From Ilumatobacteraceae bacterium (lineage in GTDB: Bacteria; Actinomycetota; Acidimicrobiia; Acidimicrobiales; Ilumatobacteraceae), in contig JAWPMO010000001.1 of NCBI GenBank assembly GCA_033344875.1, positions 2,815,595 through 2,879,594 of the forward strand: a DNA stretch of 64,000 nt, in the 5' to 3' direction. Every line of letters starts with the position of its first letter. The stretch's first letter is position 1. Below, one piece after another: positions 1-15,855 of the stretch. The translations under genes were made by a program, and so were the position numbers. The notes beneath the pieces are model-generated. The model searched no databases. It worked only from the letters and a program-made list of their open reading frames with translations, and was not told the origin of the DNA.

Positions 1-2207
1 CGGGTGAGGTCGGCATCGGGAGGCTGATACGGCGGGGTGCCCGAAACGGTGTGGACCGGGTCGCCGACCCGCGAGGCGATGTTGAAGTCGAGCAGCTTGA
101 CGCCCGTGCGAGTGAGCATGATGTTCTGCGGCTTGATGTCACGGTGCACGAGTGCGTTCTCGCTCATCGACATCAGCTCGCCGTACTCGTCCTCGGAGAT
201 CTCACCATCCCGCTTCTTGGCTTCGAGCGCGTCGAGGCGTTCGCTGTCCGGGTGGATTGCCGTCAGCGCGCCGAGCAGCTTGAGGGCGACGTCGACGGCG
301 TCGGGGTCACGCATCTGTCGCTTGCCACTGGCGTATTCGGCGAGCATCTCGCCGTCGATGTACTCCATGATGAGGTACCACTCGCCGTTGTCCGTCCGGT
401 CCGCCCAGATGACCTGGACGACGTTCGGGTGTTGCACCTTGCGCAGTGCACCGATCTCACGCCTGACCGCGTCGTAGCCGGCGGCGTTGTCGAACAGCTT
501 GAGAGCACGCACCTCACCCTCGACGACGTCGCGCACCCGGTAGACCTTCGAGAAGCCGCCGCTGCCCAGGAGTTCCTCGACCTCGAAGCGGCCGCCGATC
601 TGGTCCCCCACCGAATAGTCGCGTGCAGGCACCTTCGACGAGACCTCTCGCTGGTCGGGCGCTGGCAGTACCTCTCTGTCGGGGGCTGCATCGTCGATGT
701 CGACTCCAGCGTCGGCACCGCCACTCAGGCGATGCTGCACCGATTCGTCGCACTGCACGACGACCTCGGGGCCGTCACCGATCCGGAAGGAGAGATCGAC
801 CTGGCCGAACTCCTTGGCGCCGATGAACGACTGGGCCTCCTTGACCCGGCGACGCATCTCGACCGCCAGCGTCGCCGCCCACGACAGGAACTCGTCGGGT
901 ACGTCCATCGACGGGTCCGGGTACAGCAACCGCAACAGGCCGTCCACGGTGTTGTTCACTGCCTTGCGGTCTCGTCCACTGAGCGCGCTGCCCCACTCGA
1001 CGCGCCCCTGCAGCACTTCGAGCCGCGAGGTCGACCGGAGTTGACTCCACACCTCGGCGAGGTAGTCGCTCACAAACCCGAAGTGATCGGTGAAGTACGA
1101 CGGGTCGAGTTTCGGTACGTCCCATCCCGGGATGTACGCGTGGATGCGGTCCATGAACGCCGTGTCGTCGCGCATTTCTTTGGGGAGCGGCCCGAGAAGA
1201 TGACCGGTGCGCAGCTGGGTCTGCACGTCGACGTCGAAGTTGCCGACCATGACGATGCCGCCCTCGGCGCGGATCGACTCGCGCCCGCGGCTGAACTCGC
1301 CGGACTCCATGTACCCCTTGAGGATGTTGACGCCTTCCTTCTGGTCGAAGGACACGCCGGACACCTCGTCGAAGCAGATCACGTCGTACTGGGCCACGAG
1401 CCCTCGGCGACCGTTGGCCATGTTCACGAACATGTTGGCGATCGTCGCCTTGCCGCCCGACACGAGGTGTGCGTACGGCGAGATCTGCTGGAACAGGTGC
1501 GACTTGCCGGTGCCGCGTGGGCCGAGTTCGACGGCGTTGTAGTTGCGCACGACGAACGGAACCATGCGTGCGATCAGGATGTCCTGTTGCCGCTCATCGA
1601 GTCGCGACGGCTCGAAACCGACACTGCGCAGCAGGAGGTGGCGCCACTGCTCCAACGTGAACGAGGCGCGCCCTGCAACGAACGTCTGCAACGCGTCGCG
1701 GGTCGACATCTGGATCGGCCGGATCGCAGCGACTCGGAACGGTGACCCGCCCTTCTCCTGTGCGAGGGCGGCGATGTACTCGAGCGTGACCTCGGCGTAG
1801 AAGCCGCCGGTGAGCATCCGCTGGTGCTGTTCGACCAGGTCGGGGCCGATGGCGATGTCGTTGACCTGGAGGCTGGGAAGTTCGGCCTTGTAGCCGTCGG
1901 ACTTGGCGTCGAGGCGGGCACGCAACAGGTCGATGATCTTGATGCGGCCCTTCTCGCGGGCGCGGTGTTTGAAGAGCTCCTCTTCGCCGGCACGGACCGT
2001 GCGGTCGGCCATCGACTGCTTGACCATCTCGAGGCCGGCGGCGATCTCGTTCTCGTCGGTGGTGGCGCAGTAGCGACCCAGCATGAACTCGCCGACGTAG
2101 GTCGGCACGGGGTACTGGCCCCTGAACTGTTGGGCGAGGTCCTTCTTGACGAGGAAGCCGTCGAAGGCGCCGGCAGCGAGTTGGTCGAGGTCGTCGAGCG
2201 TCGTCAT
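1..2207 (-). CDS. brxL: BrxL AAA+ protein fused to a Ser/Thr protein kinase domain (partial, runs off window start)
   Basis: The frame is open from the ATG at 2207 to the window edge (735 codons seen). Residues 1 to about 505 match the BrxL core: Walker A GPRGTGKS near 229-236 and Walker B CFDEVSG near 278-284. BrxL normally continues into a Lon-like protease domain, which is not visible here. After a short acidic linker a protein kinase fold starts near residue 535: glycine loop LLGSGGFSKV, lysine in ALKLF, catalytic loop HRDIKPQN, and DFN where DFG is usual, then SGTPPYQPPD. I translated the junction codon by codon and found no frame break. The start overlaps the pglZ stop by 4 bases (ATGA), so it is the distal gene of the BREX operon. 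In type 1 BREX, BrxL is needed for phage defence. That the kinase regulates BREX or phage proteins, as PglW does in Pgl systems, is inference. The C-terminus is unknown. Confidence 0.9.
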   Translation of the reverse strand, partial: MTTLDDLDQLAAGAFDGFLVKKDLAQQFRGQYPVPTYVGEFMLGRYCATTDENEIAAGLEMVKQSMADRTVRAGEEELFKHRAREKGRIKIIDLLRARLDAKSDGYKAELPSLQVNDIAIGPDLVEQHQRMLTGGFYAEVTLEYIAALAQEKGGSPFRVAAIRPIQMSTRDALQTFVAGRASFTLEQWRHLLLRSVGFEPSRLDERQQDILIARMVPFVVRNYNAVELGPRGTGKSHLFQQISPYAHLVSGGKATIANMFVNMANGRRGLVAQYDVICFDEVSGVSFDQKEGVNILKGYMESGEFSRGRESIRAEGGIVMVGNFDVDVQTQLRTGHLLGPLPKEMRDDTAFMDRIHAYIPGWDVPKLDPSYFTDHFGFVSDYLAEVWSQLRSTSRLEVLQGRVEWGSALSGRDRKAVNNTVDGLLRLLYPDPSMDVPDEFLSWAATLAVEMRRRVKEAQSFIGAKEFGQVDLSFRIGDGPEVVVQCDESVQHRLSGGADAGVDIDDAAPDREVLPAPDQREVSSKVPARDYSVGDQIGGRFEVEELLGSGGFSKVYRVRDVVEGEVRALKLFDNAAGYDAVRREIGALRKVQHPNVVQVIWADRTDNGEWYLIMEYIDGEMLAEYASGKRQMRDPDAVDVALKLLGALTAIHPDSERLDALEAKKRDGEISEDEYGELMSMSENALVHRDIKPQNIMLTRTGVKLLDFNIASRVGDPVHTVSGTPPYQPPDADLT

Positions 2208-4513
2208 GTGTTGCGCCCCACGGTAGTTGCGCGTTGCAGCAGGATTGCTCCGGCGGCGTCAACGACCACGACGTGGACGACCTCGTCTTCGTGATCGTCG
2301 GGGACGAACCATGTGTACTGCCCGGCCTCCTGTGTGACGTCGACGTGGTCGGCGATGACGCTCGTCGGGTCCCCGGCGGTCGCCCGCAACTGGACGGTCG
2401 CGCCGTCGGGTAGACCGGACAGCAGGGCACGGAGCCGGAGGCCTCGCCACAGGAGTTGGCCGAGGGTCACGTCGGATGTCGGTGCCGCACCGGCGGTGAC
2501 GACCAGCCGGGGCACGACGCACTCCTGCGGGCTGACGCCGCCGTGCTCGTACGGCTTGTTCTTCTCGAAGCAGGTGATGCCGACGGCGACGGCGATGCGC
2601 ACGTCGCGGTCCCAGTGCCACGGGACGGTCGGGGTGTCGATGTGGGCGCCCGGCTTCACGCGGGCGCAGCGGCCCTTCTTCTTGACGGTGACGGCGACGG
2701 GGAGGCTCTCGTTCTTGGGGAGCCCGTTCGGCAGGAGGAGCCAGCCGTGGTCGGTGACAACGGTAATTCGGCGCCAGCCGGCGGCTATGAGTTGACGGAC
2801 GCGGTCGGCGATGCGGTCGACCTGATTGTCGAGTTCGTCGACGAGGTCGACGCCGAGCTTGTGTCCGCGACTGTCGATCTCTCCGGTCTCGGTCCAAGCG
2901 ACACCGCTGGGGTCCCCGGTCTCGGCGCCTCGCAGCACCTGGATCCTGGCCTTCTCCATGAGACCTTCCAGCACTGCCATACCGGCGGACGGGCCGTCGG
3001 GAGCTCGTCGTGCATCGAGCACGTCGCCGGCGGCGAGCTGGCCTTGGTCGACGGGGACGAGGACGGGTTTCGCGGTCTCGGTGATGGTGGGGAGTGCGGC
3101 AAGGCTCGACGTGAGTTCAGTGTCGAGCCCGACGCTCTCGAGGCGACCCCGCAGCCGGTGGGCGACGTCGAGTCGCAGCCCGTCGACGAACACCACGGCA
3201 TCACCGTCGGCGACGACGGGAGCCGCGCCTGCGGCATACGTGTCCGCGTTGGCTTCGGGCCCGATGGCCGTCTGGAGTGCGGTGGCGAGATCGTGGAGCC
3301 ACGGGCGGTAGATCGCGTCCAGTACGGCGGCTACAGCGTCTCGGGCGGGGCCCGTGGGTGCATCTGCGATCGCATCGATCGCCGCCTGGTCCACCCGCCA
3401 ACCGTCGCTGGCGTAGCCGCTGGCGATTGCATCGACGGTCGCCTGTTGTACGGCAGGGGTGGTGAGCTCGGCGACCCGGGCGATGTGCTCGAGGGCGTTG
3501 GCGAGTGGTGCCTCACCGAGTTGGCTCCACACCCAGTTGCGTCGCTCACGATGCTCGGCTTCGAGCTGCAGGAGCGTCGAGCGAGCCGGGGCCGCGTGCA
3601 GGTTGGGGAGGTCGAGCAATGCGGCACGGAGTTGGTCTTCCTTCGCCTCGTTCTCCTGGGGCCATGCGCTCATCGGCTCGGGCAGGAGTTCGTCGGGGCG
3701 TGCGGCGCGGAGCCGGTCGGGGATGTTCGGGTAGTCGCTCGGGTGTTCCCGATACCGCTGCCACACAGCGCCCCATGCACCCTTGGCCAGTCCGAGGAGG
3801 CGGGCGGCTTCGACCTCGCCGTCGCGCTCGGGTGAGAAGCGGTAGTCGTGCTCGGCCTGTTGCAGGAACGCCGTCCACGCCGCGTTGTCCATCGTCGACC
3901 GTGCGCGCGCGGGGTCGCCGATGTAGTTCAACAGGGCGCGAACCGGGTCGGGGTTGAGCAGCCCGTGGACAAAATCGGCGTCGATGTGCCGGTGTGCGAG
4001 TTGGGCAACCGGCATGTCGAGCAGGCGGGCCATTCCTGCGGCGAGACCCTTGGCGGTCTCCTGGTCGCCGGCGACCGACAGCCCGAGCCCGCTGTCGGGG
4101 TTGGAGAGCAGCGATGTGACGGTCCAGTCCTTGCCGTTGGGGTGGCCGAACAACTCACAGCGGTGTTGCAGTCCGGCGATCGGCGCGAGCGCGGAGTCGA
4201 TGTCGGCGATGGCGCGCAGGTCGCCACGGGAGGCGCCGGGCAGGTACACGATCGGCAGCCCGCCCGGTGAGCCGTCGACGACGAGTTCGCCGGAGATCAC
4301 CGTCCGGAGCCAGTAGGCGGGGCCCTGCCAGATTGCAGGGTCGTACGCTCCGAGCGTGAGGATCAGCCGGTCGCGTCGCAGTTGCCCGACGGCGCCGGCC
4401 CACTGGCGGGCTTCGTCGGTCCACAGCAGCGCGATCGGCGCGTCGAGCGCGTTCCCGTCGTGACCGGCGGCGTGGTCCAGCGCGTCGAGCAACCGGTCTC
4501 GAACGGTGCTCAC
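2204..4513 (-). CDS. pglZ: BREX alkaline-phosphatase-superfamily protein PglZ
   Basis: 769 aa, GTG start inside a 4-base overlap (GTGA) with the end of pglX. The alkaline phosphatase-like metal site is visible in two pieces: FVDGLRLD near residue 440 and VVTDHGW near 588, as expected for PglZ. The N-terminal half is helical and carries no other motif I recognise. PglZ is a core component of BREX and Pgl phage-resistance systems and probably acts in the cytoplasm together with PglX and BrxC. The end overlaps the brxL start by 4 bases, so translation is probably coupled. Family assignment rests on the motifs plus the position between pglX and brxL, which is the type 1 order. Confidence 0.93.
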   Translation of the reverse strand: MSTVRDRLLDALDHAAGHDGNALDAPIALLWTDEARQWAGAVGQLRRDRLILTLGAYDPAIWQGPAYWLRTVISGELVVDGSPGGLPIVYLPGASRGDLRAIADIDSALAPIAGLQHRCELFGHPNGKDWTVTSLLSNPDSGLGLSVAGDQETAKGLAAGMARLLDMPVAQLAHRHIDADFVHGLLNPDPVRALLNYIGDPARARSTMDNAAWTAFLQQAEHDYRFSPERDGEVEAARLLGLAKGAWGAVWQRYREHPSDYPNIPDRLRAARPDELLPEPMSAWPQENEAKEDQLRAALLDLPNLHAAPARSTLLQLEAEHRERRNWVWSQLGEAPLANALEHIARVAELTTPAVQQATVDAIASGYASDGWRVDQAAIDAIADAPTGPARDAVAAVLDAIYRPWLHDLATALQTAIGPEANADTYAAGAAPVVADGDAVVFVDGLRLDVAHRLRGRLESVGLDTELTSSLAALPTITETAKPVLVPVDQGQLAAGDVLDARRAPDGPSAGMAVLEGLMEKARIQVLRGAETGDPSGVAWTETGEIDSRGHKLGVDLVDELDNQVDRIADRVRQLIAAGWRRITVVTDHGWLLLPNGLPKNESLPVAVTVKKKGRCARVKPGAHIDTPTVPWHWDRDVRIAVAVGITCFEKNKPYEHGGVSPQECVVPRLVVTAGAAPTSDVTLGQLLWRGLRLRALLSGLPDGATVQLRATAGDPTSVIADHVDVTQEAGQYTWFVPDDHEDEVVHVVVVDAAGAILLQRATTVGRNT

Positions 4514-7500
4514 GTGCTACCCCGGGCGGCCTGCTTCTCGGCGATCGTGCAGTGCAGGTCGTTGTGGCGTTCGTTTCCGTCGGGGTTCTTGCCGCGGTCC
4601 TTGCGCCAGTGGACGTTGAAACTCGACCGCAACACACCGGCCTCGACGAAGGGGCGCACGTTCAGCCGTACGCCGTCGTTCAGGTCAGGGTCCCAACCGA
4701 TCGCCTGTTCGTGGAGCTCCTTCCACCGGACGTAGATGTCGTACGGCGGCTCGCCCTCCAGGATCAGCACCAGCTTGCGCTGCAGTTCCTGCGCCGCCGC
4801 CAGCCTGTCGTCGGCACCAGCGACGTCCTCCTGGACGGCAGCCTGCTGCCGTTCGATCCAGTCATTGAGGTAGCTGTAGGTCAAGCGCTGAAGATTCCCG
4901 GCATCGAGCCGGTGGTAGTTCACGAGTGCGGAGAAGCCGTCCTTGCGGCCGTCCCAGACGTGCCAGATGAACGGCCGGTTCTGGAACACCTTGCAGTGCT
5001 GCTTGAAGAAGTCATCCCGCAACCAAGACGCCAGATCCGTCTTCCTCGACCCCGACCGCTCCAACAACTCGCCAGTACGCGCCGGCGACCACGTCCCACC
5101 GAACGCCCGCGCCAACAGCTCCTGCAACCGATCCGCCGCCGACCGTTCACCAAGGACGGACGGCAGGCAGACGATCCCGTCGTCATCAGCCAGCTCATCG
5201 AGATGATCCGACTCTGCCTGCTCCGGCCACCGATACCGCAGCAACCGACCAACGGCCACCTGCAACGGCTCCGTCGCCATCTCGGGACGACCCTCGAACA
5301 ACCACTGCGTCGGGTCATCCGACCACGGCTCCGGCAACCCATCCGGAAACCGCTCCTCCGCCACACGCCGCCAACGGTCAACCTCAAACGGCACTTTCAA
5401 CAAAGTGGCATTCATGACCTTCAAGGAGTCATCGATATTTCGGACGGCTTCGTTGTAGTCAAGCGACGAGCAGAAAGCCCAGAGGGTAGGAAGGTCCCGT
5501 TCGTTCATCGGCCAGACAACAGCGCAGTTGTTGTCGAAGCTCGTTCCCTCGTACAGAGTGCTCTTCAACTCGCCAGTGAGGGCGACTGCGATCCCTCTCC
5601 TACCCCAAGCATCGTGACCTTGCAGCGCTGCTATGCCCTCATCTGCCAGCCGATGTAACGCACCTTCACCGCCGCTCCAATCGAGGACGTGCTCACGGCC
5701 ACTGTACGGCAGCGACCTCCTGACAGTGCTTTGATGATTCCGCCAGCGGTCGGAGCACGGCCCCAACTCCCAGAACTTTCGGATTAGACGGTTTGAGTCA
5801 CCGGTTCTGAGCCCGTACCTGCTGTCCGCGAACTCAGAGAGCAGCGACGCCGAGCCGACCGGAGCGCTCAGAATCCTCGCGTCAGGATTTTGAAGTTGCG
5901 ACGCCTGGGGGAAGTTGGTGAGCTCGCGAAGGGCTAGGTCCTGACGCGCCTCCACTGGCGAAATCGTCGAAGACGTATCGATCATGGAACTCACAGCACC
6001 CGGCTCAGGAGCACCGCTATTCACAACGGCTAGCACCACGCGGACGCGAGTTCCGATCGCGTCGGTCTCAAAGGCGCGAGCACCAAGCCACGCGATGACG
6101 GGCAGGCCGAACGTACCCAGCAGATCACGCCGCATCGCCTCATAGCGCGAAGTGTGCATCCAGTTCTCTGGCAGGACCATCGCGACTTGTCCGCGAACCC
6201 GACGGGTTAGAAGCTGCCGCAGGAATACCGTCGACAGGTCATGTTTCGCCTCCGGGTACTCAGCGTTGGCGTAGCGCCGGAGCACCGTATCCATTCTGCC
6301 AATCGCCAGAAACGGTGGGTTGGTGCAGATGAGTGTGAAGTGGCGGGAGAGGTAGTCGGCGGCTCTGGCGATGCCAGCGGCGTCGGCGCCCAACACCGAG
6401 GTGGCGGGGTCCTCGGCTTCGCGGGTCAGTGCTGTGTCGAGGAGGGGTTGGATGTCGTCCCAGTCGACATCCTCGAACGACGACTGCAGGCCCGTCGGAT
6501 CAGTGATCTCGACGACGCGCTTCGGATCGATCAGCGAACCGAGCGTGTCGGCGTCGCGAAACAGAATGTGCAACCGGACGAGCGCGTTCTCCAACCGCTC
6601 ATCACCACGAGCGAGCGCCTTCCAGTCGTCGACCGGCGCTTTCACCGGGATCCCCGAACACGCGATGTGCGGGGTCGGCAACTCACGCCACCCGCCCCCC
6701 GCCTTCCAGGCAGAAAGAGCGACAGCGAACATGGCGATCTGGACACACCGCGGATCGAGCTCCAACCCGAACAGGTTGTCGCGCAGCACCGCATCCTGCG
6801 CATCGACCGGATCGAGGCCTTCTTCTTCGGCGCGCATCTGCCACAACATGCCGAACGCCTCGACCAGGAAGTGACCCGACCCGCAACACGGATCCATCAC
6901 CGTCACCTCACCGACGGTTTCGGGCCAACCGTCGAAGCTGCCGGCGGCCGGGTTGCCGTCGTCGTCGAACCGCAGGAACTCCCACCCCTCGAGCAGCGAA
7001 CTGTCAGGATGACGGGCCGCCCACCACGCCCCGAGCGAGTTCTCGAGCAGGAACCGCACCATGTAGTTCTCGGTGAACAACTGCGTCACCGGCCCCAGAT
7101 CGGCGCCGCCGATCTTGCGTTCCGACGCGTTGACCTCATCCTTCTTGTCGCGCTGCCAGTACTGATACACCCATCCCAACGCATCGTCGGCGACGAACAC
7201 CTCGGCCGGCAACGACGCCACCAGGGCCTCCAGCCGGGCCAGACCGTCAGGCGTCAGCCGCAGTCGAAATGCCGGGTCGTCGAGCCCGAAGATCCCCGGC
7301 AGAATCTCAGCGGCGAAACGTGCCGCCACCGACCAGCCGTCGGGTTCGCCCATCGACTCGGCCAGTTCTTCACACTCGGCCAACGACACCGGTGCGCCGA
7401 ACTCCGGGTGCACCAACAGACGGTTCTCGGCCAGGAACCGGGCGAACAGCAGGCGATGCCACTGCTCGTACGCACACTCGGCGACCAGCAACTCGATCGA

Positions 7501-7704
7501 GCCGTCGGTATCACCCAACTGACGAGACCGCGCCCGCAGGCCGCGACGCAGCAGGCGTTGCTCATCGGTGAGGAACGCCGGCGGGCGGTCGCCCCACACG
7601 TCCCACGGCTCGAGCACGGCACGGCACGCGGCATCGGCTTCCCGGCGCCCAGCGACACACACGTTCTCGAGCTGCTTGCGATACTCCGAACCCAACACTG
7701 CCAT
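4510..7704 (-). CDS. pglX: BREX adenine-specific DNA methyltransferase PglX
   Basis: 1,064 aa. The N6-adenine methyltransferase motifs are clear: motif I MDPCCGSGHF at 270-279 and catalytic NPPF at 462-465. In BREX, PglX methylates one strand of a 6-7 base non-palindromic site, marking host DNA. The region after NPPF should hold target recognition. Its DNA (about 5,395-6,300) is visibly lower in GC than the flanks, for example 28 of 60 bases at 5401-5460, which suggests a swapped recognition module. The gene starts 25 bases after brxC behind a GGGAG ribosome binding site and ends in a 4-base overlap with pglZ. No frameshift or phase-variable tract was seen. Confidence 0.95.
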   Translation of the reverse strand: MAVLGSEYRKQLENVCVAGRREADAACRAVLEPWDVWGDRPPAFLTDEQRLLRRGLRARSRQLGDTDGSIELLVAECAYEQWHRLLFARFLAENRLLVHPEFGAPVSLAECEELAESMGEPDGWSVAARFAAEILPGIFGLDDPAFRLRLTPDGLARLEALVASLPAEVFVADDALGWVYQYWQRDKKDEVNASERKIGGADLGPVTQLFTENYMVRFLLENSLGAWWAARHPDSSLLEGWEFLRFDDDGNPAAGSFDGWPETVGEVTVMDPCCGSGHFLVEAFGMLWQMRAEEEGLDPVDAQDAVLRDNLFGLELDPRCVQIAMFAVALSAWKAGGGWRELPTPHIACSGIPVKAPVDDWKALARGDERLENALVRLHILFRDADTLGSLIDPKRVVEITDPTGLQSSFEDVDWDDIQPLLDTALTREAEDPATSVLGADAAGIARAADYLSRHFTLICTNPPFLAIGRMDTVLRRYANAEYPEAKHDLSTVFLRQLLTRRVRGQVAMVLPENWMHTSRYEAMRRDLLGTFGLPVIAWLGARAFETDAIGTRVRVVLAVVNSGAPEPGAVSSMIDTSSTISPVEARQDLALRELTNFPQASQLQNPDARILSAPVGSASLLSEFADSRYGLRTGDSNRLIRKFWELGPCSDRWRNHQSTVRRSLPYSGREHVLDWSGGEGALHRLADEGIAALQGHDAWGRRGIAVALTGELKSTLYEGTSFDNNCAVVWPMNERDLPTLWAFCSSLDYNEAVRNIDDSLKVMNATLLKVPFEVDRWRRVAEERFPDGLPEPWSDDPTQWLFEGRPEMATEPLQVAVGRLLRYRWPEQAESDHLDELADDDGIVCLPSVLGERSAADRLQELLARAFGGTWSPARTGELLERSGSRKTDLASWLRDDFFKQHCKVFQNRPFIWHVWDGRKDGFSALVNYHRLDAGNLQRLTYSYLNDWIERQQAAVQEDVAGADDRLAAAQELQRKLVLILEGEPPYDIYVRWKELHEQAIGWDPDLNDGVRLNVRPFVEAGVLRSSFNVHWRKDRGKNPDGNERHNDLHCTIAEKQAARGST

Positions 7705-7729: not shown

Positions 7730-10700
7730 TCAGATGATGACGATCGCGTCGTCGTCGATGTACTGCTTGAGCTGGTCGCGGAGCGAATCGACGTAGTGGT
7801 TCACGTCGTCGTGCGATTTCAGCGTGGCGCTCGGCGGCGTCACCTCGACCCGCTTCTCCTCCGGCTCCAGGAGGCCGGCGGCGACGCGGCGTGCCGCCTG
7901 CACACGGGCGGGAATCACCAGCGTCAGCTCGTTCAGTGCCTTCAACGGCCGCGCGTCGAGCGCCGCGAGCAGCTCGTCGTGCGACGTCGCGTCGGCGGCG
8001 GCGAAGGGCTGCAGCGAGTGGGCGGCGCGGAGCTCGCCCTGCTGGTCGCCGGTCAGCCGCTGCCAGCCGTCGTCCGATTCGAGCGCCGCTCGCTCGCGCT
8101 CGTCGACCTCGGTGACCCGCGCGATCGCCTCGTCGCGGGCAGCCCGGAGCATCGAGCAGACCTGTTCGACAAGCGGTGCAACCGGGTCGGGATCGTCGAG
8201 GAGTTGGCGGCCCGTCTCGACGGCGTCGCGCTGCTGCGCCACGCCGTCGACGCCGGCAAGGCCTGTGGCGTGGGCGAGCAGGCGGTTCAGTCGGTCCCAC
8301 TGGTCGAGCCTGGTCTGCCGCGCCTCGACGAGTTCCTTCCAGCGGCCGATGTCGGCCTTGAGGTCTGCCGCGTGTTCGGCGGTCTTCTTGACCAGCGCGT
8401 TGCCGGCCAGCTGCTGCAACTCGGCGACGTGGGCGGCCTCAGGGGCCGCGGGCAGCGGAGGCGCGCCGCCTGCCTGGCCGGCGAGATCGGTGACGTACTG
8501 CAGCAAGCCGCTCACAGCCGCACCCTCCTGGCCTTCTGTGTACTTCACCCCGGCCGCGGTCAGCGCTCCGCGCACCGCCATGCGCTCCTGCAGCGTCGGC
8601 GGTTCGTCCTCCTTGTAGAACGTCGCCTTGCCGATCTGTGTCGGAGGGAGTTCCTTCGGGCCGGCCACCGCCTTGCTGTCGAGCTCGGCACGAACGTGGC
8701 CGTTGGCCAACAACACCAGCAGGGCACCGTGAATCGCGTCGGACTCCCAACCGTACGGCGGCTCCTTGAGGAACTTCACGACCTCGCTGCCCTTCACCCC
8801 GCCGCCCGGGACGCGCGACAGCACCTCCTTTGTCACCGGGTTGGCGAGCACCTCGCCCGACCACCCCACCTGGGCCAGCGCGTCGCTCGCGCCGTCGCGT
8901 ACCTTGCTGACGACCTTGCCCCAGCCGTCCTGGTCGGCGACGCCGAACTTGGAGAACTGACGGACGAGAGACTTCTCGGCCGCCTGCTGCACCGTCGCCC
9001 GCAACGTCGTCACGGTGAGCTCGTTCCCCCCGCCCTGGAACACTCGGGCCCCGGCGACGACCTGGTCGAACAAGGTCGTGAGCGTGCGCTCCGCATCGCG
9101 AATCCTCGACTGCATAGCGTGCTTGGCCTGCCGACCCTCGTCGGTCTGCGGTTCCGGGCGGCTGTTGACGGTCTCCTCCGCCGCAGCGTGGGTGGCGAGG
9201 GCGTCTCTGATGGCGTCGGCCTCGACCTTCGGGAGCAGGACGAAGACGACCGGGCTGTCGGGGCCGGCCGTGGCCGCTGCGTTCTTCACCGTGGTGTCGG
9301 TCACCGACCACTCGTCACGGAACCACACCGGAACGGCGTTGCCCTCGGCCGTCGGCAGGTCGTCGTCCCACTCGCGCGTGATCGACCGTGGCACCTTGGC
9401 GAGCCCCTGGTCGATCTTGATGCCACCCATCTCGGCGTCGACCGCCGTCAACAACCGACTGTGGCGAAGTGTCGCCAGACGACCCGAGTCGGCCCGGATC
9501 GCCGCACGCCGGCGGTTGTAGTCGGCGGTCCACTCCGCCCCCTCCTCGGTCTGGAGCAGGTACTGCTCGTCGATCTTGACGACACGGCCGTCGGCCACCA
9601 GATCGGCGAGCAGGGCGGGTACCTGCTTCCGCAGCTCCGCGCCGTCCTCGGCGAGATCCTCCACCAGGAGATCGGCGATCCACGGTGCGGTCGCCCGGAG
9701 CCCCGAGTCGTTGACGCCGTCCTGGGGAAGCTGGGAGATCAGGAAGATCAGCGCACAGATGCGCGACTTGAGCAGGCCCGCCGGGGTGCCGTCCTGGAGC
9801 CCGCGGATCGTCTCGTCGATCTCCTTGAGTAGCACGCCGCTCTGCTGCATGCTCGCCGCTTCCGACGTGAACACGAAGTCGCCACCGATCACGTGTCCGA
9901 CCGGCTCGTCGGCCACGCTCTTCACCGCCTCGTGCACGATCTTGAGCTGAGTCCGCAGCACCCCCGCCTTGCCCGCCTTGTCGATCGACCGGAGCGTGCG
10001 CTCGAAGAAGCGGCGTCGGGTGGGCAGCAACGGGTAGTCGGCAACCAAGGTGTCTCGATCGGCGCCCTTCGCCTCGAGTCGGGTGCCGCCGAGGTGTTGA
10101 TCGATCTCGCCGCTGACCCCGGCGAGCGTGGTCTTGATCGCGTCGACCTGATCGGGCTTCTTTCGCAGCACCACCTGGCGGACAACCGTCTCGACGTCGG
10201 TGTCCGAGAGCTGCACCGTGACCGAGAAGCGATCCTGCAGCTTCTGCAGGGTGGAGTTCGCGGTCAATGCCGCCTGACCGGTGGCGACCACCAACACCTG
10301 GCTGTCGAAACGCGACGAACACCCCTCGACCACGTGTTGCACGTCGAGCGCGCGGGCATTGTCGTCGTTGATGTACTGCTGCATCTCGTCGAGCACGACC
10401 AACGTGAGCGGCACCTTGCCCGGGGTCGTGCTCTGGAGCTGCAGCACCTCGTCCATGGTGTCGAGCATCTCGTCGTCGCTGATGTCGCCGACCCTCGGGT
10501 ACTGGTCGCGCAGCGCCGCGGACACCTCCGCCGGGGTCGTGCCGAACGACGCCCCGGCGTCGATCAAGGCCTGGGCCAGGATCGGTGACACGTAGAGGTT
10601 GCGGAGTTCGCGATCGAACTCCTTGCCCTTCGCCTTCACGCTGTCAGCGACCTGGTCGAGCATGCCGTTCTGCCGGAGGAACAGCGCCAGTCGGGCGAGC

Positions 10701-11200
10701 TCGTACTGGTTCGGCAGGCCAGCGGCAGCGAAGATCACGTTGAGGAACGCCAGGCGGACGGATCCGGCGGCGCTGCTGCTCATGGTGCCGGCAGCCGACC
10801 AGATCCCGCCCTGGCGGTTACCGGCGTTCGTGAGCTCGACGAGATGCCGGTCGATGTCCGGAGTGAGTCGCGCCAGGTCACGGGCTGTGGTTCCCGACGG
10901 GAGCACCGGGTTACGCCAGAGGTACTCCAGCACCTTCATCAGGTGCGACTTGCCGCTGCCGAAGAATCCACTCACCCATGCAGCGGGCTGCTCGTCCTGG
11001 CCGAGATGGGAGAGGTACTGATCGAGGATGCGCTCCAGGCCGCGCTCGTACTCGCCCTCGCAGACGAAGCTGCGGAGTTCCCACTCCAGCGTGGACCAGG
11101 CCTTCTGGTCCTCCGGGTTGCCGACCTTGGCCACGCCTAGGTTGGGGATGTCTCCAGCGGTGGGGTCGACAGCGAAGGTGTCACGGTTCTTGAGCGTCAC
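7730..11200 (-). CDS. brxC: BREX ATPase BrxC (PglY-like)
   Basis: 1,156 aa, the size expected for BrxC/PglY. An N-terminal P-loop GFFGSGKS lies at 78-85, and a Walker B-like VVLDEMQQ follows near residue 270. The C-terminal half (beyond about 900) is rich in helices and leucine/alanine heptads. The GTG start at 11200 has GAGGA about 10 bases upstream. BrxC is a large ATPase required for BREX defence and, in studied systems, for host methylation. The 72-base gap from brxB is the largest in the operon and holds the ribosome binding site; I see no separate promoter in it. Confidence 0.94.
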   Translation of the reverse strand: MTLKNRDTFAVDPTAGDIPNLGVAKVGNPEDQKAWSTLEWELRSFVCEGEYERGLERILDQYLSHLGQDEQPAAWVSGFFGSGKSHLMKVLEYLWRNPVLPSGTTARDLARLTPDIDRHLVELTNAGNRQGGIWSAAGTMSSSAAGSVRLAFLNVIFAAAGLPNQYELARLALFLRQNGMLDQVADSVKAKGKEFDRELRNLYVSPILAQALIDAGASFGTTPAEVSAALRDQYPRVGDISDDEMLDTMDEVLQLQSTTPGKVPLTLVVLDEMQQYINDDNARALDVQHVVEGCSSRFDSQVLVVATGQAALTANSTLQKLQDRFSVTVQLSDTDVETVVRQVVLRKKPDQVDAIKTTLAGVSGEIDQHLGGTRLEAKGADRDTLVADYPLLPTRRRFFERTLRSIDKAGKAGVLRTQLKIVHEAVKSVADEPVGHVIGGDFVFTSEAASMQQSGVLLKEIDETIRGLQDGTPAGLLKSRICALIFLISQLPQDGVNDSGLRATAPWIADLLVEDLAEDGAELRKQVPALLADLVADGRVVKIDEQYLLQTEEGAEWTADYNRRRAAIRADSGRLATLRHSRLLTAVDAEMGGIKIDQGLAKVPRSITREWDDDLPTAEGNAVPVWFRDEWSVTDTTVKNAAATAGPDSPVVFVLLPKVEADAIRDALATHAAAEETVNSRPEPQTDEGRQAKHAMQSRIRDAERTLTTLFDQVVAGARVFQGGGNELTVTTLRATVQQAAEKSLVRQFSKFGVADQDGWGKVVSKVRDGASDALAQVGWSGEVLANPVTKEVLSRVPGGGVKGSEVVKFLKEPPYGWESDAIHGALLVLLANGHVRAELDSKAVAGPKELPPTQIGKATFYKEDEPPTLQERMAVRGALTAAGVKYTEGQEGAAVSGLLQYVTDLAGQAGGAPPLPAAPEAAHVAELQQLAGNALVKKTAEHAADLKADIGRWKELVEARQTRLDQWDRLNRLLAHATGLAGVDGVAQQRDAVETGRQLLDDPDPVAPLVEQVCSMLRAARDEAIARVTEVDERERAALESDDGWQRLTGDQQGELRAAHSLQPFAAADATSHDELLAALDARPLKALNELTLVIPARVQAARRVAAGLLEPEEKRVEVTPPSATLKSHDDVNHYVDSLRDQLKQYIDDDAIVII

Positions 11201-11272: not shown

Positions 11273-11824
11273 TCATGTGCGGGCGGAGATGACGGTGGCG
11301 TGGTAGTTCCAGCCGTCCTGGGCGCCGAGGAGGCGGAAGTTGTTCCCCTCCACCTCGCCGGGGAAGAACATCAGGAGCCGACCCTCGTTGGCGTCCTCGA
11401 CCGCCTCGACCAGGGCCGACATCTTCACGTGAGGGCCGAGCCCGAACAGGCTGGAGCCCCCGAGCAGGCCGATCACGGCGTCGGGGCCGGTGTGCTCCTC
11501 GACCTGCCGGCGCACCTGGTTCGCCAGATCGTCGAAGAAGCCAGCCAGCTCGGGCTCCATCAGTTCGGGTGACTCGAAGTACGCATCTCGGTAGTCGTGG
11601 GCTGCCATCCAGCGTTCGAACTCGTTGCTGACGTCGATCAGCGCCCAGCGATAGCCGGCCTCGACCGTGCGGTGCTCGAACATCGGGAGGTTGGCGCGCA
11701 GCCGGCGTTCGTCGGAGGGCGCGTACACCGCAGCCCAGACGCGTTGCGGCGGGGCGAGATTGGCCGGCCAGGGCAACTGGATGAACTGCTTGTAGCTCTG
11801 GATGAGCTGCTCGACACGGTTCAC
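11273..11824 (-). CDS. brxB: BREX protein BrxB (DUF1788)
   Basis: 183 aa from a GTG start at 11824 that overlaps the brxA stop as GTGA. The frame stays open further upstream, but that extension is antisense-like sequence inside brxA, so I reject the longer start. The family pattern is visible: N-terminal VEQLIQSYKQF, central GGSSLFGLGPHVKMSALV, and C-terminal FFPGEV followed by LLGAQDGWNYH, typical of DUF1788. BrxB is a small core protein of type 1 BREX whose biochemical role is not settled. Confidence 0.92.
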   Translation of the reverse strand: MNRVEQLIQSYKQFIQLPWPANLAPPQRVWAAVYAPSDERRLRANLPMFEHRTVEAGYRWALIDVSNEFERWMAAHDYRDAYFESPELMEPELAGFFDDLANQVRRQVEEHTGPDAVIGLLGGSSLFGLGPHVKMSALVEAVEDANEGRLLMFFPGEVEGNNFRLLGAQDGWNYHATVISART

Positions 11825-12588
11825 AGCAGCTGCCCTTCCATCGGTCGCATCAGCGTGCTGAAGCCGACCTCGATGACCCCGGCGCTGTGTCGGAAGTCGA
11901 TGAGCGAGCGCTGCGAGGCCAACGTCGCCAACTCGAGGAGGTGCGGAACCGGCCGATCGAGCACCTTCGCCCACTCGGTGTGGAAGAGCGCCTCACCGCC
12001 GACGCCTTCGAGGTGGCCGAGCAGGAGTGCGTAGGCGACCGTCGAGGCGGTCGCGTCCGCCCGCCGCCGGCGCTTGACCTGACCGTCGGCAGGGTCGAGG
12101 TGGCCGGTCTGCTGCCACGACGAGTAGCTGTTGCGCCCGATCTTGCCAATCGTCGATGCGCTGTAGACGCCGGGGAACTGTTCCTCGGCCGCCTCGCCGA
12201 GCTCGTCGCGGTTCACCTCGTCGCCCGGCTCGCGACTGATGATGACCTTGGCGGTCGACCGGAACACGGAGTCAGTGGCGAGCGCGCAGAGACCGGCGAG
12301 CAGCGGCTGCCCCTTCGGGTCGTCGGACCAGACGTCGCGCAGCGCCCGGAACAGGATCCGGTCGTTGCTCAGTACGTAGAGCTCGCGGAGCGAGCGGAAG
12401 GTGCGCTTGCGGACCTCGGCCGTTTCCTTGCCGAGGACATTCTCTTCGATGACCGTGCGCTCGTAGTCGTCATACGTCGACCCGTACGGCGTGTTGTCGA
12501 GCAGCTGCACAAGCATGGGCACGATCAACGTGTTGGACGTGGTAGTGCCACCGCTGACGTCTGCCGGCGCGATCCCGTACTCGCTCAC
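11821..12588 (-). CDS. brxA: BREX protein BrxA (DUF1819)
   Basis: 255 aa from a GTG start at 12588, with GAGGTC just upstream and a GTGA overlap with the preceding small HTH gene. The sequence fits the DUF1819/BrxA family: a helical N-terminus (VERTVIEEN-like segment near 35, RTFRSLREL near 60) and a C-terminal winged-helix-like half. In other species BrxA is a small DNA-binding protein. Assignment rests on fold pattern, length and conserved position as first core gene of the type 1 order. Confidence 0.88.
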   Translation of the reverse strand: MSEYGIAPADVSGGTTTSNTLIVPMLVQLLDNTPYGSTYDDYERTVIEENVLGKETAEVRKRTFRSLRELYVLSNDRILFRALRDVWSDDPKGQPLLAGLCALATDSVFRSTAKVIISREPGDEVNRDELGEAAEEQFPGVYSASTIGKIGRNSYSSWQQTGHLDPADGQVKRRRRADATASTVAYALLLGHLEGVGGEALFHTEWAKVLDRPVPHLLELATLASQRSLIDFRHSAGVIEVGFSTLMRPMEGQLL

Positions 12589-12913: not shown

Positions 12914-14752
12914 GTGTCAGATTTCGAAGTGATCCAGGACATGATGGTTGCCAATGCGTTCGAGCCATTTATCAGGTCAATCGAGTTTCCACGTTTCAAG
13001 AATCTGGAGCCAGGGACGCGGATCGATTTCGATTCTCCAATCACGGCTTTGATCGGCCCGAACGGAACGAACAAGAGCTCGATATTGCGGGCGATACAGG
13101 CTTGTCCACAGCAGTACGACATCGGGGACTACTGGTTCGACACCCCGTTGGATCCTGTCGGCGCCGACAGCCAGCTCGGCACGCACCGGTATATCCACCG
13201 CTATCAGTTGCCGAGTGGCTCAATGGCAGAGGTCATCAAGGCTCGCGTCGGCACAGCATCCCGGGGCCCCGACTACTTCGAAACGAGCGCACCCCGTATT
13301 CGAGACGGAATGGCAAACATGCCCGATCTGACGCCAGCGTCCGATGAGCGGTTTCGCAGCAAGACTCGTTGGTCGCCGATCGAGAAGCCGGTGACCTACC
13401 TCGACTTTCGCCAAGAACTCCCTGCGTACGACATCTTCTATTTCTTCGACCTCGGGGTCGGCGCGAAGTCGGCTTCCGACAAGAAACAGCGCATCAGACG
13501 CACAAGCGGCCACATCCGTTCCGCTATTCAGAATCGTCGAACGTCGTTCAAGTGGTACGGGAACGAACGCATCATTGAACCCGCTCAAGATCTTGGGCAC
13601 GACGAGCTTGATGATCTGCGTTCGATTCTCGGCAGGAAATACACCTCAGTTTCGATGATCAAACACTCCTTCTTTGGTGTACCCGGCTTTACCGCGCGAC
13701 TACATACGGGCCACTCGACCTACTCCGAGGCCTATGCAGGAAGTGGCGAATTCGCAGCGACTATGATCACACGAGCGCTGCACAGCGCTCCGTCCAACAG
13801 TCTCATCCTTCTCGACGAACCCGAGACCTCACTCCATCCGGGGGCGCAGAGTCAGCTCATGCGGGTCGTGGCGAGATTGACCAAGGAACGCAAACTTCAA
13901 GTCGTTCTTGCGACGCACTCGGAACACATCGTTCGCGAACTCCCGGACAATGCGCGGAAGCTGTTAGATACCCGACCCGACACAGGCGTTGTGTATGTCG
14001 CAGCCCAGCGCGCCTCCGTTAGTGAATCCTTCGTTCGCTTGGGGTCTGCTCACGACAAGATCCAAATACTGGTTGAGGACCAACTCGCAACCGCAGTTGT
14101 CGAGCGCGCAGCGCGACTGATCGGCCCAGCAGCGCTCGGCGCCCTTCGAGTCGACCCAGTTCCGGGTGGTGCAGGAAACCTGACCAGCAGGGTGATTCCT
14201 GTTCAGGCTGCTATCGGGTCGAGTTCCATGGTTCTGCTCGACGGCGACCAGAAGCCACAACGGTCCGACGGTGTGGTGGATGCGACGGAGGACGAGCTGT
14301 TCGCGTGGGAGAGCAACCCTGGTCGCCCGACGAATGCGATGACGGAGGAGGAGGTGGACGCTGAGCTCACGACACGCTTCGGCATCAATCCATCCCTCAT
14401 TGTTTCCGATGGTGGAAACGATCCGAACGCTGCAGGCAGGGCGGTTGTTCAAAAACGAGTGACGCTTGGGTGGGCCCGAACCCACGTCTTCTTCTTGCCG
14501 GGCACTTCTAATCCGGAAGCGCTGCTTTGCGGGTTCATTGGCGCCGATCTGGGGTCCACCTCACCGAAGGAATACTGGAGGGCCCTCGCAACGGAAGAGC
14601 TCGGTCTGCTCGACTCCGAGGAGGTCTCCGCTCCACAAATCCTTCATTCCCAGAAGGCTGCGCTCGCCAAAGTGACCGAGCAATCGCCGGTGATGGGCGA
14701 TCTGGTGACACTTCTCCGCAGGTTGCTGGGAACGGCCGCGGCCAACCCCTAA
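12914..14752 (+). CDS. OLD-family-like ATPase with C-terminal TOPRIM-like region
   Basis: 612 aa, GTG start behind GGAGGA. The ABC/SMC-type ATPase has Walker A GPNGTNKSS (48-56, with NK where GK is usual, as in several OLD-like proteins) and Walker B LILLDEPETSLHPG near 297-310, followed by a H-loop-like LATHSEH. A TOPRIM-like half follows: ILVEDQLA near 383 and MVLLDGDQKP near 438. OLD nucleases combine these two parts and occur in several anti-phage systems. No UvrD-type partner is next to it, so it is not a Gabija pair. GC is clearly lower than the neighbours (26 of 60 bases at 13621-13680), indicating recent transfer. It diverges from the BREX operon and converges on a cytosine methyltransferase. 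Confidence 0.82.
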   Translation: MSDFEVIQDMMVANAFEPFIRSIEFPRFKNLEPGTRIDFDSPITALIGPNGTNKSSILRAIQACPQQYDIGDYWFDTPLDPVGADSQLGTHRYIHRYQLPSGSMAEVIKARVGTASRGPDYFETSAPRIRDGMANMPDLTPASDERFRSKTRWSPIEKPVTYLDFRQELPAYDIFYFFDLGVGAKSASDKKQRIRRTSGHIRSAIQNRRTSFKWYGNERIIEPAQDLGHDELDDLRSILGRKYTSVSMIKHSFFGVPGFTARLHTGHSTYSEAYAGSGEFAATMITRALHSAPSNSLILLDEPETSLHPGAQSQLMRVVARLTKERKLQVVLATHSEHIVRELPDNARKLLDTRPDTGVVYVAAQRASVSESFVRLGSAHDKIQILVEDQLATAVVERAARLIGPAALGALRVDPVPGGAGNLTSRVIPVQAAIGSSSMVLLDGDQKPQRSDGVVDATEDELFAWESNPGRPTNAMTEEEVDAELTTRFGINPSLIVSDGGNDPNAAGRAVVQKRVTLGWARTHVFFLPGTSNPEALLCGFIGADLGSTSPKEYWRALATEELGLLDSEEVSAPQILHSQKAALAKVTEQSPVMGDLVTLLRRLLGTAAANP

Positions 14753-14763
14753 GCTTCTCGCCG

Positions 14764-15855
14764 CTAACTCAGGCTCGCGCGTACGGTCCAGGCGATTGAC
14801 GACGCGAGCAACGGCGGAACTGCGTTGCCGATCTGGCGTGCGATCTGAGTCTTTGTGCCGCACCACAGGTAGTCCTCCGGGAAGGACTGAACTAGCGCTG
14901 CCTCGAAGTGAGTCAGTGCCCGATTGACCCTCTTCCGGCGGCTCCGCTTCTCCCACTGCGGGTGGAGATAGCGTCCCTTCTCGGGCTTGTTGAACTCGGT
15001 ACGGATCGTCACCGAGGGCTGTTCCCAACGGAGACGACCCATCACATCCGTCGTGCCGGTCTTCTTGTTCTGCCAGCACGGCGGCTGCATGTCGAATGGC
15101 AGGTCGAACCGGCCGCCACCCGGCGGGATCACGTCATAGCGCTTCAAAGACAGCTCGGTCGGATTGCGGCCGACGTGAACGTCGAGACCCTTGTACACCC
15201 CAGGCACACGCTGACCGAAGAACTCGACCGAACTCTTCGGCAGCGTCGTTGTCGGCACGTCCCAATCCACCGAGCCGATCGCATCACGGAGCGTCACCCA
15301 GGGCTCTAATCCGTCGGCGCCACCTTTTGCATGCGTGGGCGTCGGCAACGAGATCGGCCCGACGCGGGACGCGACGATGACGGTCCGCTTGCGGGTCTGC
15401 GGTACACCGAAGTCGGCGGCGTTGACGACACCCACGCTGGCGTGCTTCCATCGCTTCAGCTGGCCAGTCGTCAACTCACCCATGAGGAGATCGAACTCGG
15501 CCGACTTACAGAACCGGCCGACGTTCTCCAACACGAACACCTGCGGGTTCGCTTCGAGCACCACCCGCATGTACTCGCGCCAGAGCGAGTTGCGAGGGTC
15601 GTCCGGGTCACGGGTGCCGATCTGCGAAAAGCCCTGGCACGGCGGGCCTCCGACAACCACGTCGGCCTGGGGCACATCGACGAAGTCCGCGATGTCGCCA
15701 TGCGACACTCCCGTCTCGCCAAAGTTCGCGGCGAACGAACTCGCGGCGGCCAGATCCAGCTCGTTGGCCGCGATGTGGGTGAATCCGGCGTCAGCGAAGC
15801 CCCGCGTCAAACCGCCGCACCCTGCAAACAGGTCAATGGTGGTTGGCCCGCTCAT
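14764..15855 (-). CDS. C5-cytosine DNA methyltransferase (Dcm type)
   Basis: 363 aa. Motif I DLFAGCGGLTRGF at 8-20, catalytic GGPPCQGFS at 69-77 (Cys73), motif VI ENV at 110-112, motif VIII QTRKRT, and C-terminal IARQIGNAVPP. It transfers a methyl group from SAM to C5 of cytosine within a target set by the variable region between motifs VIII and IX. No restriction endonuclease of a known family is adjacent. The convergent OLD-like ATPase is the nearest candidate partner and the gap between the stops is 11 bases. The start is supported by a -10 box TAGTGT 7 bases upstream. Confidence 0.93.
   Translation of the reverse strand: MSGPTTIDLFAGCGGLTRGFADAGFTHIAANELDLAAASSFAANFGETGVSHGDIADFVDVPQADVVVGGPPCQGFSQIGTRDPDDPRNSLWREYMRVVLEANPQVFVLENVGRFCKSAEFDLLMGELTTGQLKRWKHASVGVVNAADFGVPQTRKRTVIVASRVGPISLPTPTHAKGGADGLEPWVTLRDAIGSVDWDVPTTTLPKSSVEFFGQRVPGVYKGLDVHVGRNPTELSLKRYDVIPPGGGRFDLPFDMQPPCWQNKKTGTTDVMGRLRWEQPSVTIRTEFNKPEKGRYLHPQWEKRSRRKRVNRALTHFEAALVQSFPEDYLWCGTKTQIARQIGNAVPPLLASSIAWTVRASLS

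Follow-up and report, generated by a model that had tools for sequence, protein, structure and literature searches.

A protein kinase in place of the Lon-like C-terminal domain of BrxL in BREX type 1 operons of Actinomycetota

The window analysed here, a 64,000-nucleotide stretch from an Ilumatobacteraceae bacterium (G000:C1:2815595-2879594, in a genome consisting of a single contig of 4.97 Mb), carries at its left edge a gene that we call BrxL-K, and this gene is almost certainly the brxL of a complete bacteriophage exclusion (BREX) type 1 operon in which the Lon-like C-terminal domain has been exchanged for a protein kinase. The full locus (L002:12343-14802, minus strand) runs from an ATG at window position 2207 to a stop codon 253 bases left of the window and encodes 819 residues. 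An original prediction, made from the window sequence, had described one open frame joining a BrxL AAA+ core to a kinase, and the motifs are present: Walker A at residues 229-236, the FDE of Walker B at 279-281, K570 and HRDIKPQN at 688-695. The features of the gene are as follows, in window coordinates.

2207..1 and 253 bases past the left edge, minus strand: brxL-kinase fusion gene (BrxL-K), with 735 of its 819 codons in the window (translation)
1776..2168, minus strand: BrxL_N, residues 14-144 (Pfam PF20442, 144.8 bits, cut-off 28.2)
792..1739, minus strand: BrxL AAA+ ATPase, residues 157-472 (Pfam PF13337, BrxL_ATPase, 407.1 bits, cut-off 25)
1500..1523, minus strand: Walker A GPRGTGKS, residues 229-236 (translation, alignment)
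1365..1382, minus strand: Walker B VICFDE, residues 276-281 (alignment)
618..743, minus strand: variable linker, residues 489-530 (only 38-42% identity between fusions over residues 481-530; predicted local distance difference test, pLDDT, below 50 at 489-527)
1..587 and continuing left of the window, minus strand: protein kinase domain, residues 541 to about 815 (Pfam PF00069, Pkinase, 113.5 bits, cut-off 31.7)
123..146, minus strand: catalytic loop HRDIKPQN, residues 688-695 (translation; D690, K692 and N695 invariant)
81..89, minus strand: DFN at the DFG position, residues 707-709 (alignment)

The BrxL identity of the N-terminal part is supported by the BrxL model TIGR02688 (431 bits, cut-off 329) and by the alignment of residues 6-478 with Acinetobacter BrxL (8EMC), in which E281 corresponds to E280 of the latter; the full-length BrxL model TIGR02653 reaches 500.9 bits, below its cut-off of 628. 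Pfam finds no Lon domain in BrxL-K, and in the sequence left of the window the kinase continues up to the stop codon with no Lon domain after it. The domain matches and the models for the six operon genes thus bear out the proposal that the kinase sits where the Lon-like domain normally lies in a type 1 system. An AlphaFold model, built from a shallow alignment of the window part only and poor in the AAA+ region (pLDDT below 50 for residues 225-366), served only for the linker, which it predicts to be disordered, and for a weak fold check, where 8EMC/8EMH and the PknB/Stk1 kinases are the top structure matches.

A search for further fusions, which covered Actinomycetota, yielded two more intact copies, one frame-broken copy and one remnant; a second search of the phylum drew largely the same sample and added nothing, and a wider contig scan was incomplete, being swamped by ordinary kinases. 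The intact fusions occur in G172, of the same class (L122:14467-16917, 73% identity over residues 2-817), and in G751, of another class of the phylum (L153:13344-15794, 72% identity), and each is the last gene of a complete brxA-B-C-pglX-pglZ operon. That a sequencing error joins two neighbouring genes is refuted by these independent copies: even though the G850 gene (82% identical in the core) is interrupted by several frame breaks, some near the junction and others within the kinase, resulting either from draft errors or from decay, intact frames of 816-819 codons are found in three genomes of two classes and the sequence is conserved across the junction. Comparison of these genomes shows that the fusion has been inherited undivided, together with its operon, and between genomes BrxL-K is even more similar (71-72% identity) than the remaining operon proteins (47-61%). 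A tree built from 32 BrxL cores unites the four fusions in one clade (support 100/100), nested in a group whose other members have Lon-like tails or, in one case, a Schlafen AlbA_2 tail, suggesting that the fusion most likely arose once.

Some of these copies have unusual surroundings. In G172 the operon is flanked by a TrwC relaxase just upstream (L122:709-3828) and by a PHP-plus-ATPase gene just downstream (L122:17032-19530), which suggests carriage on a mobile element. The operon of G850 contains two pglX-like stretches, with pglZ split around the second (L168:4190-10055), reflecting either recombination or phase variation, or misassembly. The fifth genome, G122, has kept only a 3' remnant (72% identical; remnant and neighbours at L125:1325-1672 and 2892-4807), and this kinase end adjoins genes that read like IS21 IstA/IstB. 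Among plasmids no record reached 80% coverage of the query, and in viral contigs the complete BrxL tails were all of Lon type, with no kinase tail.

The operon of the source genome holds all six BREX type 1 genes on the same strand in the order brxA-brxB-brxC-pglX-pglZ-brxL (PADLOC and NCBIfam models), the end of pglZ and the start of BrxL-K sharing 4 bases.

2204..4513, minus strand: pglZ, type B of BREX-1 (NF033450, 765 bits, cut-off 400; PDLC02566)
4510..7704, minus strand: pglX (BrxX), adenine methyltransferase (PDLC02528, 1281 bits; NF033452, 345.6 bits, below its cut-off of 500)
7730..11200, minus strand: brxC (NF033441, 707.6 bits, cut-off 400; PDLC02489, 1276 bits)
11273..11824, minus strand: brxB (PDLC02469, 198.7 bits; Pfam BrxB, 23.7 bits, slightly below cut-off)
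11821..12588, minus strand: brxA (PDLC02450, 239.4 bits)

Several neighbours give the locus the appearance of a defence island. The next gene left of BrxL-K encodes a GmrSD-like type IV restriction protein (L002:9911-11860, minus strand), and a NERD-domain protein (L002:8113-9339, minus strand), an OLD/AAA ATPase (window 12914-14752, plus strand) and a C5-cytosine methyltransferase (window 14764-15855, minus strand) are also found.

The kinase retains the complete residue set of the Hanks type, and the Gly loop (G548-V555), the VAIK-type lysine K570 (here ALK), the alpha-C glutamate E584, the HRD aspartate D690, K692, N695 and the DFG aspartate D707 are all invariant in the three intact copies; the catalytic sites of both the ATPase and the kinase are retained. 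Judged by Nei-Gojobori counts, the kinase is under purifying selection, with dN/dS of about 0.14-0.28 compared with 0.13-0.19 in the core. The DFG position reads DFN and the APE position PPD, and catalysis is for this reason likely though not certain. T720 and S722 of the activation segment are invariant as well, and are candidate autophosphorylation sites.

As regards the origin of the kinase, the best NCBIfam match in all three fusions is MAD6 (182-191 bits; 187 in the source genome), followed by PknB (134-142 bits) and PglW (80-88 bits; 88 in the source genome), all below the respective cut-offs; that of the MAD6 model NF047741, which spans NERD and tandem kinases, is 460 bits. The trees group the BrxL-K kinase with those of MAD6 and with the second domain of a stand-alone tandem kinase of G120, apart from ordinary serine/threonine kinases (STKs), and the PglW kinases form a separate, distant clade. 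The branches are long, and the placement on the MAD6 side is hence moderate evidence. Forcing the PglW kinases and BrxL-K together costs 25.6 log-likelihood units (p = 0.07 in the approximately unbiased test, p-AU), so that a PglW origin is disfavoured, not formally rejected. That a housekeeping PknB-like kinase was captured recently is also disfavoured, as placing BrxL-K among the STKs, away from the two MAD6 rows, costs 11.6 units (p-AU 0.025, again with long branches). The trees nest the kinase of G120 within those of BrxL-K (a clade of BrxL-K kinases alone has p-AU 0.08 and is not rejected), implying that the module may have moved between BrxL-K and tandem-kinase contexts. Most likely, then, the Lon-like domain gave way once in evolution to a kinase related to that of MAD6. 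A stand-alone tandem kinase is encoded at L124:4651-6432 (minus strand); the second of its kinases shares 58% identity with that of BrxL-K, and beside the gene lies a SIR2_2-like protein (L124:3179-4582, plus strand); the two may form a two-gene defence unit.

The original prediction had taken BrxL-K for a hybrid between BREX type 1 and Pgl. This is borne out only in part: there is indeed a kinase in a BREX operon, but the operon is purely type 1, PglW has no match in the source genome at E 1e-40, and in the trees the kinase groups with MAD6 and not with the PglW kinases; no further mad genes were identified in the operon.

Four kinds of BrxL tail are found among Actinomycetota: Lon-like, kinase, Schlafen SLFN_AlbA_2 and phospholipase D (PLD)-like, the last matching MIT_C in Pfam and probably being what the literature calls HKD. 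The Lon, AlbA_2 and kinase tails all follow one conserved hairpin past RRRVKE, and the BrxL tree shows two or more separate origins of AlbA_2 tails (L123:9789-11798, L136, L115, L119, L149, L150, L154, L142, L143 and L147 are AlbA_2-tailed). In its main text, a 2026 survey of BREX mentions no BrxL tails besides LonP, which is without the catalytic dyad, and HKD, a C-terminal endoDNase present in 1030 of 2913 BrxL-bearing type 1 taxa; AlbA_2 tails do not figure there (PMC12839542). The domains found in place of the Lon-like one are enzymes or resemble nucleases. To judge from this distribution, the C-terminal end of BrxL appears to be a slot for interchangeable output modules.

These observations suggest a mechanism to which we give about an even chance, namely that BrxL-K rings loaded on DNA cluster their kinases and that the ensuing phosphorylation halts the phage or the infected cell. 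We infer ring formation, DNA triggering, kinase activity and targets of BrxL-K as follows. On invading DNA that is unmodified, the core would assemble into a ring like that in the solved Acinetobacter structure, and would thereby gather six or seven tethered kinase domains. In Hanks-type kinases proximity favours trans-autophosphorylation, and the gathered domains would phosphorylate one another, possibly at T720 and S722, after which they may act on host, phage or BREX proteins so that phage replication or the infected cell is stopped. The kinase would then act as an output module triggered by DNA, at the position where other BrxLs have a PLD/HKD nuclease or an AlbA_2 domain. More tentatively, and with somewhat less confidence, the C-terminus may be an output slot in general, with ring loading on unmodified phage DNA switching the kinase on, so that type 1 BREX would have a branch with a kinase as effector. 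It is plausible that the outcome may be under the control of phosphorylation, as originally predicted; that this happens instead of proteolysis does not hold, because in type 1 BrxL the Lon-like domain has no Ser-Lys dyad according to the survey (PMC12839542), and hence no proteolysis was replaced.

Several points weigh against a DNA-triggered effector. In Acinetobacter, BrxL forms rings on double-stranded DNA; two of these meet at an equator occupied by the C-terminal domains, and the Lon-like domain has the structural role of joining them (PMC10164562); ring assembly of BrxL-K is thus only predicted, and K287 of the Acinetobacter protein is D288 here. The DFN and PPD motifs qualify catalysis, as noted above. 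Salmonella BREX defends without BrxL, as the survey reports (PMC12839542), so an effector role of BrxL is not universal. Finally, sequence alone does not separate an effector from a regulator. As the main rival, a regulatory kinase would phosphorylate PglX, PglZ, BrxC or BrxL itself and so time DNA modification or attack, as proposed for PglW in Pgl. It is the sole kinase in an operon that includes PglZ, a protein of alkaline-phosphatase fold, and BrxX and further BREX proteins have been purified together with BrxL (PMC11842806, PMC12205998). However, most type 1 BREX systems function without a kinase, type 1 PglZ has recently been reported as a nuclease (PMC12205998), the kinase groups apart from the PglW clade in the trees, and the slot is otherwise filled by nuclease-like or dead domains, none of them a regulator; regulation is less likely than not. 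It is more improbable still that the kinase fold serves only as a spacer or ring-joining substitute with irrelevant catalysis. Such a role would agree with the structural function (PMC10164562) and the catalytic inactivity (PMC12839542) of the replaced domain, as well as with DFN and PPD, whereas the invariant catalytic residues and purifying selection make it less likely, and the nearest relatives, including one MAD6 with DFN (L035, Cyclobacteriaceae), keep HRDIKPQN or HRDVKPSN.

The absence of any described example, which the original prediction could only presume, was sustained by searches for BrxL-kinase proteins in open-licence PubMed Central papers, and the mentions of 'kinase' in the main text of the survey include no BrxL fusion (PMC12839542). 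On the open-licence literature, BrxL-K is a conserved and apparently undescribed variant of BREX type 1 BrxL. It contradicts a published remark according to which PglW of Pgl is the only kinase homologue in BREX systems (PMC9009780). The Lon-like tail, being catalytically dead, gives no clue to what BrxL contributes to defence; since nature has here replaced it by an enzyme whose point mutants are well known, the role of BrxL becomes testable, and if kinase-dead BrxL-K failed to defend, the C-terminus would be the site of BREX output. If the DNA-triggered effector is real, BREX would here respond to the phage DNA it detects by phosphorylating proteins.

Compared with known systems, BrxL-K shares with the Lon-type BrxL (Acinetobacter, PDB 8EMC/8EMH; close relatives L033 and L127-L130) the N-terminal and AAA+ domains, the Walker motifs, the hairpin after RRRVKE and the operon position after pglZ, and differs in having a linker and kinase in place of the Lon-like domain. 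HKD-tailed BrxLs likewise have another C-terminal module instead of the Lon-like domain, but theirs is a nuclease and their cores belong to other branches of the BrxL tree. PglW of BREX type 2 (Pgl), a type without BrxL according to the survey (PMC12839542), is also a Ser/Thr kinase working alongside PglX and PglZ; however, it is a separate large NERD-kinase-winged-helix protein whose kinase falls into another clade of the trees. Closest by kinase profile and tree is MAD6, the NERD-pseudokinase-kinase protein of MADS, another methylation-based defence system, of which L035 shares the DFN motif, while BrxL-K lacks the NERD and pseudokinase parts and scores far below the MAD6 cut-off.
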